64,000 bases of DNA from Aureimonas ureilytica (lineage in GTDB: Bacteria > Pseudomonadota > Alphaproteobacteria > Rhizobiales > Rhizobiaceae), in contig NZ_LDQA01000008.1 in assembly GCF_001475935.1 (NCBI RefSeq), forward strand, positions 62,001 to 126,000, in the 5' to 3' direction. Below are positions 32,569 to 36,709 of the stretch, one piece after another. Under the pieces are notes generated by a model, which made no database searches, was not told the origin of the DNA, and worked only from the letters and a program-made list of their open reading frames with translations. The stretch's first letter is position 1; every line of letters starts with the position of its first letter. The position numbers and the translations under genes are program-made.

Positions 32569-33843
32569 ATGAAGCTCACATCCTATTGGCTGGACACGGC
32601 CCCGCCCTTCACCGGCGGCGCCCAGGGTCCGATCGAGGGCAGCTACGATGTCGCCGTGATCGGCGGCGGCTTCACGGGCCTGACGGCGGCGCTGACGCTC
32701 GCCAAGAAGGGCGCGCGTGTCATCCTGCTTGAAGCCGAGACGATCGGCCATGGCGCGTCGGGTCGAAATGGCGGCATGTGCAACAACGGCTTTGCGCAGG
32801 ACTACGCCACCATGTCGGAGAAGCTCGGCCGTGAAAAGGCCGATCAACTTTACAAGGCCTTCGATGCGGGCGTCGATACGGTCGAGCGCCTCGTGAGCGA
32901 AGAGGGCATCGACTGCCAGTTCGCGCGCGTCGGCAAGCTGAAGCTCGCCGCCAAGCCCGAGCATTACGACAAGCTGGCTCGCGCGCAGGCCCTGCTGGCC
33001 GCCCATGTCGATCCCGAAACCCACATGGTGAGCCCCGCCGACCTCGCCTCCGAGGTCGGAACCGAGCGCTATTACGGCGGCCTCGTCTACGGCAAGAGCG
33101 CGGCCATGCATATGGGTCGCTATATCAGGGGCCTGGCGGAAGCCGCCGCGCGGCGCGGCGTCGCCATCCATGAGCGCACGCCGATGATGGGTCTGAAGCG
33201 CGTGAGCGGCGGCCACGCTGTTGAAACGCCCAAGGGAAAGTTCACGGCCAAACAGGTGCTCCTCGCCAGCGGCATCTCGCAGGTTGGCCCCATCGGCTGG
33301 GTACGCCGGCGCGTGGTGCCGGTGGGCGCGTTCCTGATCGCGACCGAGCCGCTGCCGCAGGACCTTCTGCATAAGCTGACGCCGCGCCGCCGCAATGCTG
33401 TCGATACCAAGAACCTCGTCAACTATTTCCGCCCGACCCCCGACAACCGGCTGCTCTTCGGCGGGCGCGCGCGCTTTGCCGTGTCGAATCCGGCCTCGGA
33501 CGAGAAGAGCGGCGCGATCCTGCGCGCGGCGCTGAACGACGTCTTCCCCGAACTCAGCGACACGCGCATCGACTATTGCTGGGGCGGCATGGTGGACATG
33601 ACGCGCGACCGGCTGCCCCGCGCGGGCGAGCGCGACGGCATCTATTATTCCATGGGCTATAGCGGCCACGGCACGCAGATGTCGACGCTGATGGGCACGA
33701 TCATGGCCGATGTCATGGACGGGCAGGCCCATCTGAATCCCTGGAAGGACTTCGACTGGCCGGCCATTCCCGGTCATTTCGGCAAGCCCTGGTTCCTGCC
33801 GATCGTCGGCGCTTATTATCGCATGAAGGACCGCTTCCAATGA
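32569..33843 (+). CDS. FAD-dependent amine oxidase, gamma-glutamylputrescine oxidase (PuuB)-like
   Basis: A 424-aa DAO-family flavoprotein. An N-terminal SYWLDTAPPF lead-in typical of PuuB-type oxidases is followed by VAVIGGGFTGLTAALTLAKKG and the GHGASGRNGG flavin loop. The C-terminal MGYSGHGTQMSTLMG closes the FAD site. The ATG at 32569 is preferred (CGGAG upstream); a TTG seven codons earlier is possible. Its stop overlaps the aldehyde dehydrogenase start by 4 bp, so the aldehyde it produces from a primary amine is presumably oxidised by the next enzyme. Confidence 0.88.
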   Translation: MKLTSYWLDTAPPFTGGAQGPIEGSYDVAVIGGGFTGLTAALTLAKKGARVILLEAETIGHGASGRNGGMCNNGFAQDYATMSEKLGREKADQLYKAFDAGVDTVERLVSEEGIDCQFARVGKLKLAAKPEHYDKLARAQALLAAHVDPETHMVSPADLASEVGTERYYGGLVYGKSAAMHMGRYIRGLAEAAARRGVAIHERTPMMGLKRVSGGHAVETPKGKFTAKQVLLASGISQVGPIGWVRRRVVPVGAFLIATEPLPQDLLHKLTPRRRNAVDTKNLVNYFRPTPDNRLLFGGRARFAVSNPASDEKSGAILRAALNDVFPELSDTRIDYCWGGMVDMTRDRLPRAGERDGIYYSMGYSGHGTQMSTLMGTIMADVMDGQAHLNPWKDFDWPAIPGHFGKPWFLPIVGAYYRMKDRFQ

Positions 33844-35297
33844 TCGACCCCGTTCGCCATCTCAGCGAGGCCGGTCATCTTCTTCGCTTCTATATCGACG
33901 GCGCGTGGCGCGAGCCGGAGGGGCGCGAGCGCTTCGCCGTCGTGAACCCGGCGAGCGAAGCGGTGGTGGCCGAGATCGCGATGGGCAACGAGGCGGATGT
34001 CGAGCGCGCGACCCTCGCCGCGCGCCGCGCTTTTCGCCCGTGGTCCCGCACGAGTCCGGCCGAGCGCGCCGCGCTTCTCTCGCGCGTTCATGCGCTCGTT
34101 CTGGAACGGGCCGAGCTGATCGCGCAGGCGCTTCGCACCGAAATGGGCGCGGCGATCAACTATGCTCGCGCGGCGCAGGTGCCGCTCGCCGCTGAGCATC
34201 TCCGGGTGGCCCGGGACAATCTGGAGAGCTTCCCCTTCGTCGCGCCGCGCGGCACGACCGCGATCCTGAGGGAGGCGATCGGCGTCTGCGCGCTGATCAC
34301 CCCCTGGAACTGGCCGCTCTACCAGATCACGGCCAAGGTCGGCCCGGCGCTCGCCGCCGGCTGCACGGTGGTGTTGAAGCCGAGCGAGCTGTCGCCCTTG
34401 AGCGCGCTTCTGTTTGCCGAGATCATGCACGACGCCGGCTGCCCGGCGGGCGTGTTCAACCTCGTCAACGGCAGCGGGCCTGTGGTGGGCGAAGCTATGG
34501 CCTCGCACCCGGAGGTCGACATGGTGTCGATCACCGGCTCGACCCGCGCCGGCGTTCTGGTGGCGCAGGCCGCGGCGCCCACCGTCAAGCGCGTGGCGCA
34601 GGAACTCGGCGGCAAGTCGCCCAATATCGTGCTGCCCGACGCCGATCTGGAGCGCTGCATTCCGCTCGGCGTCGCCTCCGCCATGCGCAATCTCGGGCAA
34701 TCCTGCAGCGCGCCGACGCGCATGATCGTGCCGCGCGCGCGGCTGGCCGAGGTCGAAGCGCTGGCGGCCAGGACGGCGGCGGAATTCGTGGTGGGCGATC
34801 CCCTGGGCGAGGCGACCACCCATGGCCCGATCGCCAACCGTGCGCAATACGAGCGCATCCAGACCATGATCGAGACCGGCATCGCGGAGGGCGCCAAGCT
34901 CGTTATCGGCGGAGCGGGACGGCCCGACGGGATAGATGCCGGCTTGTTCGCGCGCCCGACCATCTTCTCCGAGGTTCGCAGCGACATGGCCATCGCGCGC
35001 GAGGAAATCTTCGGGCCGGTTCTCGCCATCCTGCCCTATGACAGCGTGGAGGAGGCGATCGAGATCGCCAACGACACGATCTACGGGCTCGGCGCGCATG
35101 TGCACGGCACCGACATGGATCAGGTCCGCGACGTGGCGGGGCAAATCCGTGCCGGTCAGGTTCATCTGAACGCGCCGGCCTGGGACCCGAACGCGCCCTT
35201 CGGCGGCTACAAGCGCTCCGGCAACGGCCGCGAGTATGGGCGCGAGGGGATGGAAGAATATCTCGAGACGAAATCCGTGCTCGGATATTATGCCTGA
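33840..35297 (+). CDS. NAD-dependent aldehyde dehydrogenase
   Basis: A 485-aa enzyme with general base E255 (ELGGKSPN) and catalytic C289 (NLGQSCSAPTRM). The NLGQSCSAP active-site segment is typical of broad-specificity aldehyde dehydrogenases. It overlaps the oxidase gene by 4 bp, indicating stoichiometric expression and a two-step amine to acid conversion. Last gene of the operon; a UUCG hairpin follows at 35307. Confidence 0.92.
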   Translation: MIDPVRHLSEAGHLLRFYIDGAWREPEGRERFAVVNPASEAVVAEIAMGNEADVERATLAARRAFRPWSRTSPAERAALLSRVHALVLERAELIAQALRTEMGAAINYARAAQVPLAAEHLRVARDNLESFPFVAPRGTTAILREAIGVCALITPWNWPLYQITAKVGPALAAGCTVVLKPSELSPLSALLFAEIMHDAGCPAGVFNLVNGSGPVVGEAMASHPEVDMVSITGSTRAGVLVAQAAAPTVKRVAQELGGKSPNIVLPDADLERCIPLGVASAMRNLGQSCSAPTRMIVPRARLAEVEALAARTAAEFVVGDPLGEATTHGPIANRAQYERIQTMIETGIAEGAKLVIGGAGRPDGIDAGLFARPTIFSEVRSDMAIAREEIFGPVLAILPYDSVEEAIEIANDTIYGLGAHVHGTDMDQVRDVAGQIRAGQVHLNAPAWDPNAPFGGYKRSGNGREYGREGMEEYLETKSVLGYYA

Positions 35298-35324: not shown

Positions 35325-35527
35325 TTGGCTCACATGATGAGCTTCGTCCTCCCGCCATGCGCTGCCGGCATGGCTGATCTGCGAGCCTTCGCTATCGCGC
35401 CAACGCATTCCTCCCTTTCCAGCTTTGCGCTCCTCGTCATGGCTCGGCTGGGTTAGATAGGGATCAACAGACAACAACGTCGAGCCGGCCGCCAGCCAGA
35501 CGAGGCCGGGCAGACAAGGACCAGACC

Positions 35528-35671
35528 GTGACACTCGCTCGCCTCTTCGAAGATCGCCCCCAGTTCCGCCTCACGGCTCGCGAACGGAACGGCTTCATCG
35601 CTCGCGAGCTGTCGGAGATCGGCCTTTCGCGCTCCGACCTTCCGTCGAGCAAGCGGCGCACGGCCCGCTAA
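35528..35671 (+). CDS. DUF1127 small basic protein (47 aa)
   Basis: A 47-aa arginine-rich protein starting at GTG with AAGGA 7 nt upstream. The segment FIARELSEIGLSRSDLPSSKRR matches the DUF1127 core (arginine/leucine helix then DIGLSRSDI-like end). Such proteins in alphaproteobacteria are stress-induced and the Rhodobacter member CcaF1 is an RNA-binding protein. Immediately downstream are three hairpins with identical anti-Shine-Dalgarno loops, the arrangement known for CcsR RNAs. No convincing promoter was found in 35298-35527. Confidence 0.75.
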   Translation: MTLARLFEDRPQFRLTARERNGFIARELSEIGLSRSDLPSSKRRTAR

Positions 35672-35685
35672 GACTTTTTCAGTTT

Positions 35686-35794
35686 CGCCCTGGCCGGTCC
35701 TCCCCCGGCCCCGGCGTTCAAGCCGAACGGTTCCTCCCACCTTTCGGCTTACCCCTGACGCCCTTGCCGGTCCTCCCCCGGCAAGGGCGTTTTT
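35686..35794 (+). ncRNA. Candidate CcsR/cuckoo-like sRNA: three stem-loops, each with a UCCUCCC loop
   Basis: Three consecutive hairpins follow the DUF1127 stop codon. Hairpin 1 (35686-35716) has stem GGCCGG/CCGGCC with an outer CGCC/GGCG and loop TCCTCCC at 35698-35704. Hairpin 2 (35720-35750) has stem AAGCCGAA/TTCGGCTT plus inner GGT/ACC and loop TCCTCCC at 35732-35738. Hairpin 3 (35758-35790) has a perfect 13-bp stem and loop TCCTCCC at 35771-35777, followed by TTTT, and so doubles as the terminator. The loops are complementary to GGGAGGA Shine-Dalgarno sequences. The start of the RNA is unknown; it is probably processed from the DUF1127 mRNA. Confidence 0.75.
35758..35794 (+). terminator. 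Rho-independent terminator forming the third sRNA hairpin
   Basis: A 13-bp perfect stem (ACGCCCTTGCCGG and its complement) followed by a run of five T (35790-35794). It ends the DUF1127/sRNA transcript. The loop is the same TCCTCCC as in the two preceding hairpins. Confidence 0.85.
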
Positions 35795-35890
35795 CGTTTC
35801 GGCGCCACGCGGTTGGGGCGCGAGGTCGAAGCCCAAACGCAAAGAGGCGGGCCGCGAGCGACCCGCCTCGATCCGACCTGGGATCTGCGC

Positions 35891-36709
35891 TTAGCGCAGG
35901 AAGTCCAGCAGATCCTTGTTCAGCCGATCCGGCACGGTGGCGAAAAGCCCGTGCGGCTCGCCCTCGTATTCCACCAGACGCGCGCCCGAAATGGCCTTGG
36001 CGGCGGCCCGGCCCGTCGGGTCGATCGGCACCGTGTTGTCGCCCGTGCCGTGGATCACCAGCGTCGGAATGGTGAAGGCCTTGAAATCGGGGCGGAAGTC
36101 GGTCTTGCCGAAAGCGTCCACGCAGTCGATCGTCGCCTTGGGGCTGGCCATCACGCCGAGCACGAAGGACCAGTCGAGAACGCCCTGGCTGACGGGATGG
36201 GACAGAAGCCCGACGCCGTAGAAGCTCTTGGAAAAGCTGTGGAGGAAGGCGAAGCGATCCTTTCGGATCTGGGCCTTCATGTCCTCGAAGACGCTGGCGT
36301 CCACGCCGTCCGGATTGCTCTCATCCTTCAGGAGATAGCCGGCGACCGAGGCGACCAGAACCGCCCTGGAAATGCGCGACGCGCCGTGGCGGCTCAGATA
36401 GCGCGCGATTTCGCCTCCGCCCATGGAGAAGCCGACCAGTGAGACATCCTTCAGATCGAGCCCGTCCAGAACGGCGGCAAGATCGTCGGCGAAGACGTCG
36501 TAGGTATAGCCGGTGGCGGGATGGCCCGACTGGCCGAAGCCGCGCCGGTCATAGGTGATGACCCGAAAGCCCGCTTCCAAGAGCGCGACGGTCTGATACT
36601 CGAACATGTCGCCGGTCAGCGGCCAGCCGTGGATCAGCACGACCGGGCGACCCTGGCCCATGTCCTTCACGTGAAGCTGTGTGCCGTCCTTGGCTTCGAT
36701 ATAGGCCAT
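35891..36709 (-). CDS. Alpha/beta hydrolase (non-heme chloroperoxidase/esterase type)
   Basis: A 272-aa protein with the catalytic triad S95 (VGFSMGGGE elbow), D224 (HGTGDNTVP) and H253 (GEPHGLF). The oxyanion region HGWP is at residues 27-30. The pattern and length match cofactor-free haloperoxidases, which are serine esterases with perhydrolase activity. No signal peptide. The ATG has GGAGG-like AAGGAGG upstream. It is divergent from an AraC-family gene (258 bp apart), which may control it. Confidence 0.88.
   Translation of the reverse strand: MAYIEAKDGTQLHVKDMGQGRPVVLIHGWPLTGDMFEYQTVALLEAGFRVITYDRRGFGQSGHPATGYTYDVFADDLAAVLDGLDLKDVSLVGFSMGGGEIARYLSRHGASRISRAVLVASVAGYLLKDESNPDGVDASVFEDMKAQIRKDRFAFLHSFSKSFYGVGLLSHPVSQGVLDWSFVLGVMASPKATIDCVDAFGKTDFRPDFKAFTIPTLVIHGTGDNTVPIDPTGRAAAKAISGARLVEYEGEPHGLFATVPDRLNKDLLDFLR

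Follow-up and report, generated by a model that had tools for sequence, protein, structure and literature searches.

Unit architecture and predicted fold

Why would a gene of fewer than fifty codons be followed by three hairpins that all expose the same seven-nucleotide loop? The question is raised by a locus in a 64,000-nucleotide stretch of an Aureimonas genome (the window), in which three stem-loops displaying UCCUCCC stand behind a DUF1127-like frame. The answer that we favour, and judge to be probably correct, is that the hairpins constitute a redundant trans-acting RNA that masks GGGAGG ribosome-binding sites of uptake and catabolic mRNAs. The features of the unit, all on the forward strand, are as follows.

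35357-35371 (+): ATGC-N7-GCAT dyad 5' of the unit; among copies the arms are fixed and the spacer varies
35368-35380 (+): GCATGGCTGATCT, a fit to the VtlR/LsrB consensus GCAT-N3-TG-N3-T given in excerpts of two reports (PMC7486931, PMC8844928)
35399-35435 (+): upstream conserved block with GCTTTGCGCT, a probable promoter region, from an alignment of 18 Aureimonas loci
35516-35520 (+): AAGGA, Shine-Dalgarno-like, for the DUF1127-like gene (read from the sequence)
35528-35671 (+): DUF1127-like gene, 47 codons/47 aa, GTG start at 35528 and TAA at 35669-35671; a diverged copy
35686-35716 (+): hairpin 1, loop UCCUCCC at 35698-35704
35720-35750 (+): hairpin 2, loop UCCUCCC at 35732-35738
35757-35791 (+): hairpin 3, also the intrinsic terminator stem, loop UCCUCCC at 35771-35777
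35790-35794 (+): T-run of the terminator (read from the sequence)

Hairpin 1 begins 14 nt past the end of the 47-aa gene. The predicted fold of 35672-35800 consists of exactly three hairpins, each with a 7-nt UCCUCCC loop, and its minimum free energy is -61.5 against -36.8 +/- 3.3 in shuffled sequences (z -7.4; 0 of 200 as stable). Two or more TCCTCCC-loop hairpins were obtained in 0 of 500 dinucleotide shuffles. A chance origin of the triple display was rejected on the basis of both fold stability and the dinucleotide shuffle test, and the three stem-loops with a common TCCTCCC loop proposed in an earlier, sequence-only reading of this DNA are borne out. The 17-nt identity between hairpins 1 and 3 that it pointed out (GCCGGTCCTCCCCCGGC, 35693-35709 and 35766-35782) is exact. 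It had also described the last hairpin as a 13-bp terminator; the terminator and its 13 perfect pairs stand, and one closing G-U pair has to be added. As the bare word TCCTCCC is not enriched within the window (11 occurrences against 10.9 expected), the significance rests on clustering and on the hairpins. The words at 35347 and 35409 were considered as a fourth and fifth display and rejected, since they are not hairpin loops of such a kind in the predicted fold.

Two neighbouring genes were also recorded. An alpha/beta hydrolase gene adjoins the unit (window 35891-36709, minus strand), and its relatives, at 83-85% DNA identity, adjoin triple loci without a DUF1127 hit in three other genomes (G009, G012 and G019; loci L212, L219, L244 and L080), some of these alignments being just 79-81 bp at the edge of the fetched stretch. 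An aldehyde dehydrogenase gene (33840-35297, plus strand) precedes the unit, and a relative of it (66-69% DNA identity) adjoins another DUF1127 locus in G007 (L086, L117).

Relation to known small RNAs

Published work is quoted here and below from excerpts of the cited papers. The cuckoo RNA family (Reinkensmeier and Giegerich 2015) comprises RNAs of 2-4 hairpins (PMC4504443), and the CIN1 locus is formed by short DUF1127 genes associated with CcsR-like RNAs (PMC10253847). Traits of both are present in the window. The number of adjacent hairpins falls within 2-4, a common anti-Shine-Dalgarno loop motif is repeated on variable stems, and a short DUF1127-like gene, assigned by its identity to paralogues, lies directly 5' of the hairpins. 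Unlike the cuckoo RNAs, the window RNA carries UCCUCCC in 7-nt loops and not the full 9-nt CCUCCUCCC. The full CCUCCUCCC is present in loops 1 or 2 of many homologous loci, and in the window its 3' seven letters alone are unpaired.

The hairpin number is shared with SmelA075 (PMC3927594) and NfeR1/alpha-r14 (PMC10746234) of Sinorhizobium meliloti, each described with three hairpins and CCUCCUCCC in every one of them, a layout found here in the 7-letter form. They differ from the window copy in that the latter follows a DUF1127 gene and the units of its host genome are without a good VtlR/LsrB box in the printed orientation. NfeR1 is 115 nt long (PMC8844928), occurs in six copies in S. meliloti (PMC7143759) and silences substrate-binding-protein and ntrB mRNAs via its motifs (PMC8844928, PMC10746234), which its genetics indicate to be functionally redundant (PMC10746234). 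With three-hairpin RNAs already described in the excerpts of these reports, the triple display is not new, nor is it unusual in a family for which the earlier reading had named two hairpins as the usual number. The redundancy of the NfeR1 motifs speaks against a gain in avidity, suggested for the present RNA, as the explanation for having three.

In CcsR1-4/ccaF1 of Rhodobacter sphaeroides, small RNAs also occupy the 3' region of a DUF1127 gene; these are four homologous RNAs, in contrast to the single three-hairpin RNA of the window. The loops of CcsR RNAs carry CCUCC motifs. AbcR1/AbcR2 (suhB, RF00519) share anti-Shine-Dalgarno motifs with the window RNA, and their transporter targets and VtlR/LsrB control (PMC7143759, PMC7486931, PMC8844928) parallel what may hold for it; they differ from it in having two motifs and binding Hfq. 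Identity with AbcR/suhB was rejected because no RF00519 match was found in the host genome among the 150 of 412 first-look candidates scored. An Rfam family assignment was also rejected, there being no match within the window at gathering scores.

Conserved loops and paired stems

Linkage between the hairpins and DUF1127 genes was examined in a sample chosen by protein, the best 80 of 186 candidate loci encoding a relative in GTDB species genomes. It spans Aureimonas, Aurantimonas, Jiella, Fulvimarina, Phyllobacterium, Pseudochrobactrum and others. Close relatives are numerous in it, yet 78 of its downstream sequences are distinct. Within 230 nt past the stop codon, CCUCC hairpin loops numbered at least one at 78 loci, at least two at 77 and at least three at 58, and 72 of the 80 had two or more loops in which UCCUCCC was complete. 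By comparison, 400 shuffles gave no CCUCC hairpin in 367 cases, one in 32 and two in 1. No CCUCC hairpin loop was present in this interval at L193 and L198. The recognition, in the sequence-only reading, of a cuckoo-type RNA next to a DUF1127 gene is thus upheld by 77 of the 80 protein-chosen loci. DUF1127 genes of another, weakly matching class in Aureimonas genomes serve as a natural negative control: 12 of 12 were without a CCUCC loop in the 260 nt folded.

Two further observations concern this sample. Five CCUCC loops occur at several Jiella, Aurantimonas and Fulvimarina loci, like the multi-RNA CcsR arrangement. One record titled Bacillus subtilis (L161, JAHREI010000002) has a DUF1127 locus like the Pseudochrobactrum ones and is probably a mislabelled or contaminated assembly.

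A pattern of three motifs matched in 21 of 21 Aureimonas genomes, some of the matches being due to chance, since reversed controls match partly. After 14 matches whose third part was without the terminator core had been dropped by eye, together with overlapping registers of one locus, 63 Aureimonas triple loci were compared: 53 chosen by the pattern and fetched, and ten of the host genome, including L029 even though the pattern had missed it. The third loop is TCCTCCC at 63 of 63, a count conditioned by the fact that its first six letters served to find all of these loci. Across the 13 pairs of the hairpin 3 stem in 47 distinct sequences, 97.2% of cells are canonical, against a mean of 78.7% and a maximum of 82.3% in 500 permutations and 43-49% with slid partners, statistics that ignore the relatedness of rows. 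The 36 canonical pair types show no excess over permutations (mean 35.6, maximum 39). For the hairpin 2 stem, the canonical cells amount to 74% against a permutation maximum of 64% (25 distinct sequences of 31 loci), a comparison that leans towards pairing because only loci with three canonical closing pairs were taken as rows. When more of the surrounding sequence was folded, the best single structure had three CCUCC loops at 45 of the 63 loci, two at 17 and one at L029.

Pairing above permutations and conserved loops agree with the proposal that the loop is kept while the stems change. Altered loops on a stem that is still predicted, which had been named in advance as evidence to the contrary, were found at L029 (loop 1), L263 (loop 2) and L264 (loop 1); these copies are exceptions, each in a multi-unit genome, and the general pattern is not overturned. 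Drift or decay is further seen in L265, L266 and L269; changed loops and truncated or drifted DUF1127 frames occur among these and L263 (genomes G013 and G011), in species with several units.

The DUF1127-like protein and the possible independence of the RNA

The 47-aa protein of the window reached no Pfam or NCBIfam family. Its identity to eight paralogues is 38-51%, and the three paralogues scanned all match DUF1127 (PF06568) at E values of 4e-14 to 5e-12; against the family profile it ranks lowest of the nine. The earlier naming of a DUF1127 gene consequently holds through the paralogues' PF06568 matches and the identity to them, and not through a family match of the protein itself. Estimated dN/dS is about 0.5-1.2 between the window protein and 18 of 19 relatives (the nearest, L226, not being computable) and 0.18-0.42 between other units, where four pairs were tried and three could be computed, all figures being rough with just 46 codons.

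On a protein-centred account, the chief partner of the hairpins would be a protein, whether the neighbouring DUF1127 product or some other, and the binding would serve processing or autoregulation of the unit, with mRNA pairing secondary. In Rhodobacter, CcaF1 is an RNA-binding protein that promotes the maturation by RNase E of the CcsR RNAs carried on its own transcript (PMC10253847), and this, with the strong linkage of the hairpins to DUF1127 genes, speaks for such binding. Several observations point the other way. No DUF1127 hit was found in about 600 nt upstream at 14 of the 63 Aureimonas triple loci; the window protein has drifted to the dN/dS values just given while its RNA is intact; and short DUF1127 proteins of Agrobacterium work via protein contacts with PhoR (PMC12501420). 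These proteins, borne on plasmids, by themselves restore a phosphate phenotype, implying that a DUF1127 protein has a function of its own (PMC12501420), a point that weighs against the preferred, RNA-centred account. We regard protein binding as unlikely to be the main role of the hairpins.

The same 14 loci bear on the idea that the hairpins act in cis alone, stabilising the 3' end of the DUF1127 mRNA and terminating it. Hairpin 3 is indeed a terminator, which speaks for the idea. A terminator can do without a constant loop and without its repetition in three copies, and at those loci an upstream DUF1127 hit is missing. A purely cis-acting element is accordingly improbable, and we continue with the trans-acting RNA as the preferred account.

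Copies in the host genome and across Aureimonas

The host genome (5.01 Mb) contains nine DUF1127 units with hairpins (the window and L029-L036). Three TCCTCCC words are kept in eight of them and two in L029; a tenth triple RNA, L037, is without a DUF1127 hit. The window unit aligns with seven others (L029-L035) over 324-472 bp, stopping near the terminator, and mutual alignments of six near-identical units cover 413-465 bp. L036 is more distant, with 87 bp aligned to the window and 135-334 bp to L029-L035. The flanks of the units do not align, with one exception: the downstream flanks of L029 and L035 share another repeat, about 490 bp long at 86% identity, some of whose frames contain longer open stretches.

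When 121 genomes of the family were searched at E up to 1e-15 with a profile built from the host genome, and hence biased towards it, the host gave 9 matches, the next genome 5, and 19 genomes none. A congener outside this sample (G013) also has 9 at the same level, one of them without intact loops.

Other arrangements were seen beside these units. A tandem pair of triple-motif RNAs follows a single DUF1127 gene at L209 (G008:C1:2238207-2239414). Two loci of the host genome, L039 (contig C68) and L040 (C106), carry two TCCTCC words (TCCTCCCAGAT... plus the terminator loop), without a DUF1127-like frame among their listed upstream ORFs, and may represent a further cuckoo subfamily.

Dispersal on this scale raises the possibility of a selfish repeat whose hairpins serve its own spread. 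The nine units, whose alignments run from some 400 bp upstream to the neighbourhood of the terminator between unaligned flanks, would fit such a repeat, as would the 13-nt inverted repeat that encloses L032 (12 of 13 letters, where 72 swapped flank pairs reach a maximum of 11). The other eight units, though, show 10-11 of 13, like the swapped pairs, and the limits of the units fall at the conserved upstream region on one side and at the terminator on the other. The dN/dS of 0.18-0.42 in three computable pairs among the other units also stands against it. This explanation is not favoured, and we consider it very improbable.

The upstream control region

VtlR sites are reported as CAATGCAGCCATGCA (PMC12595884) and as the consensus GCAT-N3-TG-N3-T (PMC7486931, PMC8844928). 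LsrB of S. meliloti is the VtlR orthologue (PMC8844928) and binds at -72 to -57 relative to the NfeR1 start (PMC10746234). NfeR1/alpha-r14 is characterised by a sigma-70 promoter whose LsrB site directly precedes the RNA. A VtlR box with at least 12 of 15 letters in the printed orientation was present in 36 of the 80 upstream regions (400 nt each) against 8 of 1600 shuffles, and the controls were empty, the reversed box being absent from all 80 regions and the box itself from all 12 genes of the other DUF1127 class. The strict consensus was found in 30 of 80 regions on one strand and 25 of 80 on the other, against 31 and 45 of 1600 shuffles. At the 14 triple loci of Aureimonas where no DUF1127 hit was found, a box of at least 11 of 15, a level that chance reaches in 93 of 1600 shuffles, lies about 75-130 nt before loop 1; at one of these, L232, it is 15 of 15. 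A box ahead of the RNA at such loci resembles NfeR1 with its LsrB site.

In all nine units of the host genome, the VtlR/LsrB box in the printed orientation reaches just 8-10 of 15. The consensus fit in the window (35368-35380) comes from the opposite orientation, matches the full Brucella box at 11 of 15, and is located about 148 nt 5' of the DUF1127 start codon, not directly before the RNA. Of the 20 loci that form the window's class, two (the window and L031) have the strict consensus and 12 the ATGC-N7-GCAT dyad, which is present in 2 of the 43 other Aureimonas loci examined. With the box weak and the dyad common, the sequences suggest that control of the amplified class may have changed.

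Predicted target sites and probable mode of action

The host genome has 31 TGGGAGGA-N4-9-ATG sites against 1 for the reversed pattern, TGGGAGGA being the full loop complement plus one letter, with shorter sites uncounted. These sites yielded 30 loci, of which 23 with ORFs of at least 100 aa were scanned by Pfam and 7 with shorter ones left out. Substrate-binding proteins make up 9 of the 23. Of the other 14, two could be assigned to no family, and the rest comprise an MFS transporter, a sugar kinase, a DeoC/LacD aldolase, Gfo/Idh, ThuA, a short-chain dehydrogenase, enzymes of the GMC, FMO-like and Rieske/VanA types, CoxG, a STAS protein and an acyl-CoA synthetase. On contig C118, three sites lie close together, on genes for a substrate-binding protein, Gfo/Idh and ThuA. 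The direction of the excess agrees with published NfeR1/AbcR targets in the excerpted report (PMC8844928). Peripla_BP_4 occurs in 5 of the 23 and has 30 over-cut-off matches genome-wide (hypergeometric P 2e-7, with 4,700 genes assumed).

A first control Shine-Dalgarno word, GAAAGGAGA, had 5 sites, too small a set. A second, AAGGAGA, had 103 sites against 15 reversed, from which 30 loci were made, 14 of them with ORFs of at least 100 aa; these included substrate-binding proteins in 2 of 14 and Peripla_BP_4 in 0 of 14. The excess of substrate-binding proteins over this control, 9 of 23 against 2 of 14, falls short of significance (Fisher P 0.11), and GGGAGGA may simply be a strong site of highly expressed genes.

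UCCUCCC resembles the 3' end of 16S rRNA, and the loops could accordingly mimic its anti-Shine-Dalgarno end and act as a non-specific global damper of translation, for which the high copy number would supply the dosage. Perfect 8-letter sites are nevertheless few (31, shorter ones uncounted) and rich in one functional class, so that a global damper appears quite unlikely.

The masking of particular mRNAs by a trans-acting RNA thus remains the preferred reading. What the sequences show is the predicted structure, the conserved loops, the DUF1127 linkage, the copy number, the box enrichment and the over-representation of a single transporter domain among genes with a perfect seed match; expression, processing, pairing in vivo and the regulator are matters of inference. 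A single transcript would encode the small DUF1127 protein and carry in its 3' region an RNA of about 110 nt with three hairpins, ending at its own terminator. This RNA is probably cut free, as RNase E does in the Rhodobacter relative. Through its three exposed UCCUCCC loops it would then base-pair in trans with ribosome-binding sites reading GGGAGGA and prevent translation, chiefly of mRNAs for periplasmic substrate-binding proteins and carbon-catabolic genes. Any single loop would probably suffice, making the three redundant.

Implications

The cuckoo/CIN1 kind is itself already known; the new parts are the copy number and the possible change of control. A joint reading for the Aureimonas lineage, offered tentatively, is that of a self-contained dispersed cassette of about 400-450 bp, with eight copies of one class beside one older-looking unit and with its upstream region remodelled: the printed VtlR/LsrB box would have been lost and the ATGC-N7-GCAT dyad gained, and the RNA would outlive the protein in some copies. 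If this is true, a conserved regulator of one to few copies became a family diversified in dosage and signal.

In excerpts of the literature on DUF1127/VtlR and NfeR1/VtlR, nothing was seen that connects DUF1127 loci with both cuckoo hairpins and the VtlR box. Excerpts of two reports leave open whether the VtlR-activated locus atu1667 acts through a small protein or an RNA (PMC7486931) and call the RNA-binding versus protein-binding roles of DUF1127 proteins an intriguing puzzle (PMC12501420). In several genera, a short DUF1127 gene, multiple anti-Shine-Dalgarno hairpins and a VtlR/LsrB box are associated. This association, the loci that have RNA and box without a DUF1127 hit, and the predicted uptake regulon make the protein-or-RNA question testable by separating the two products.
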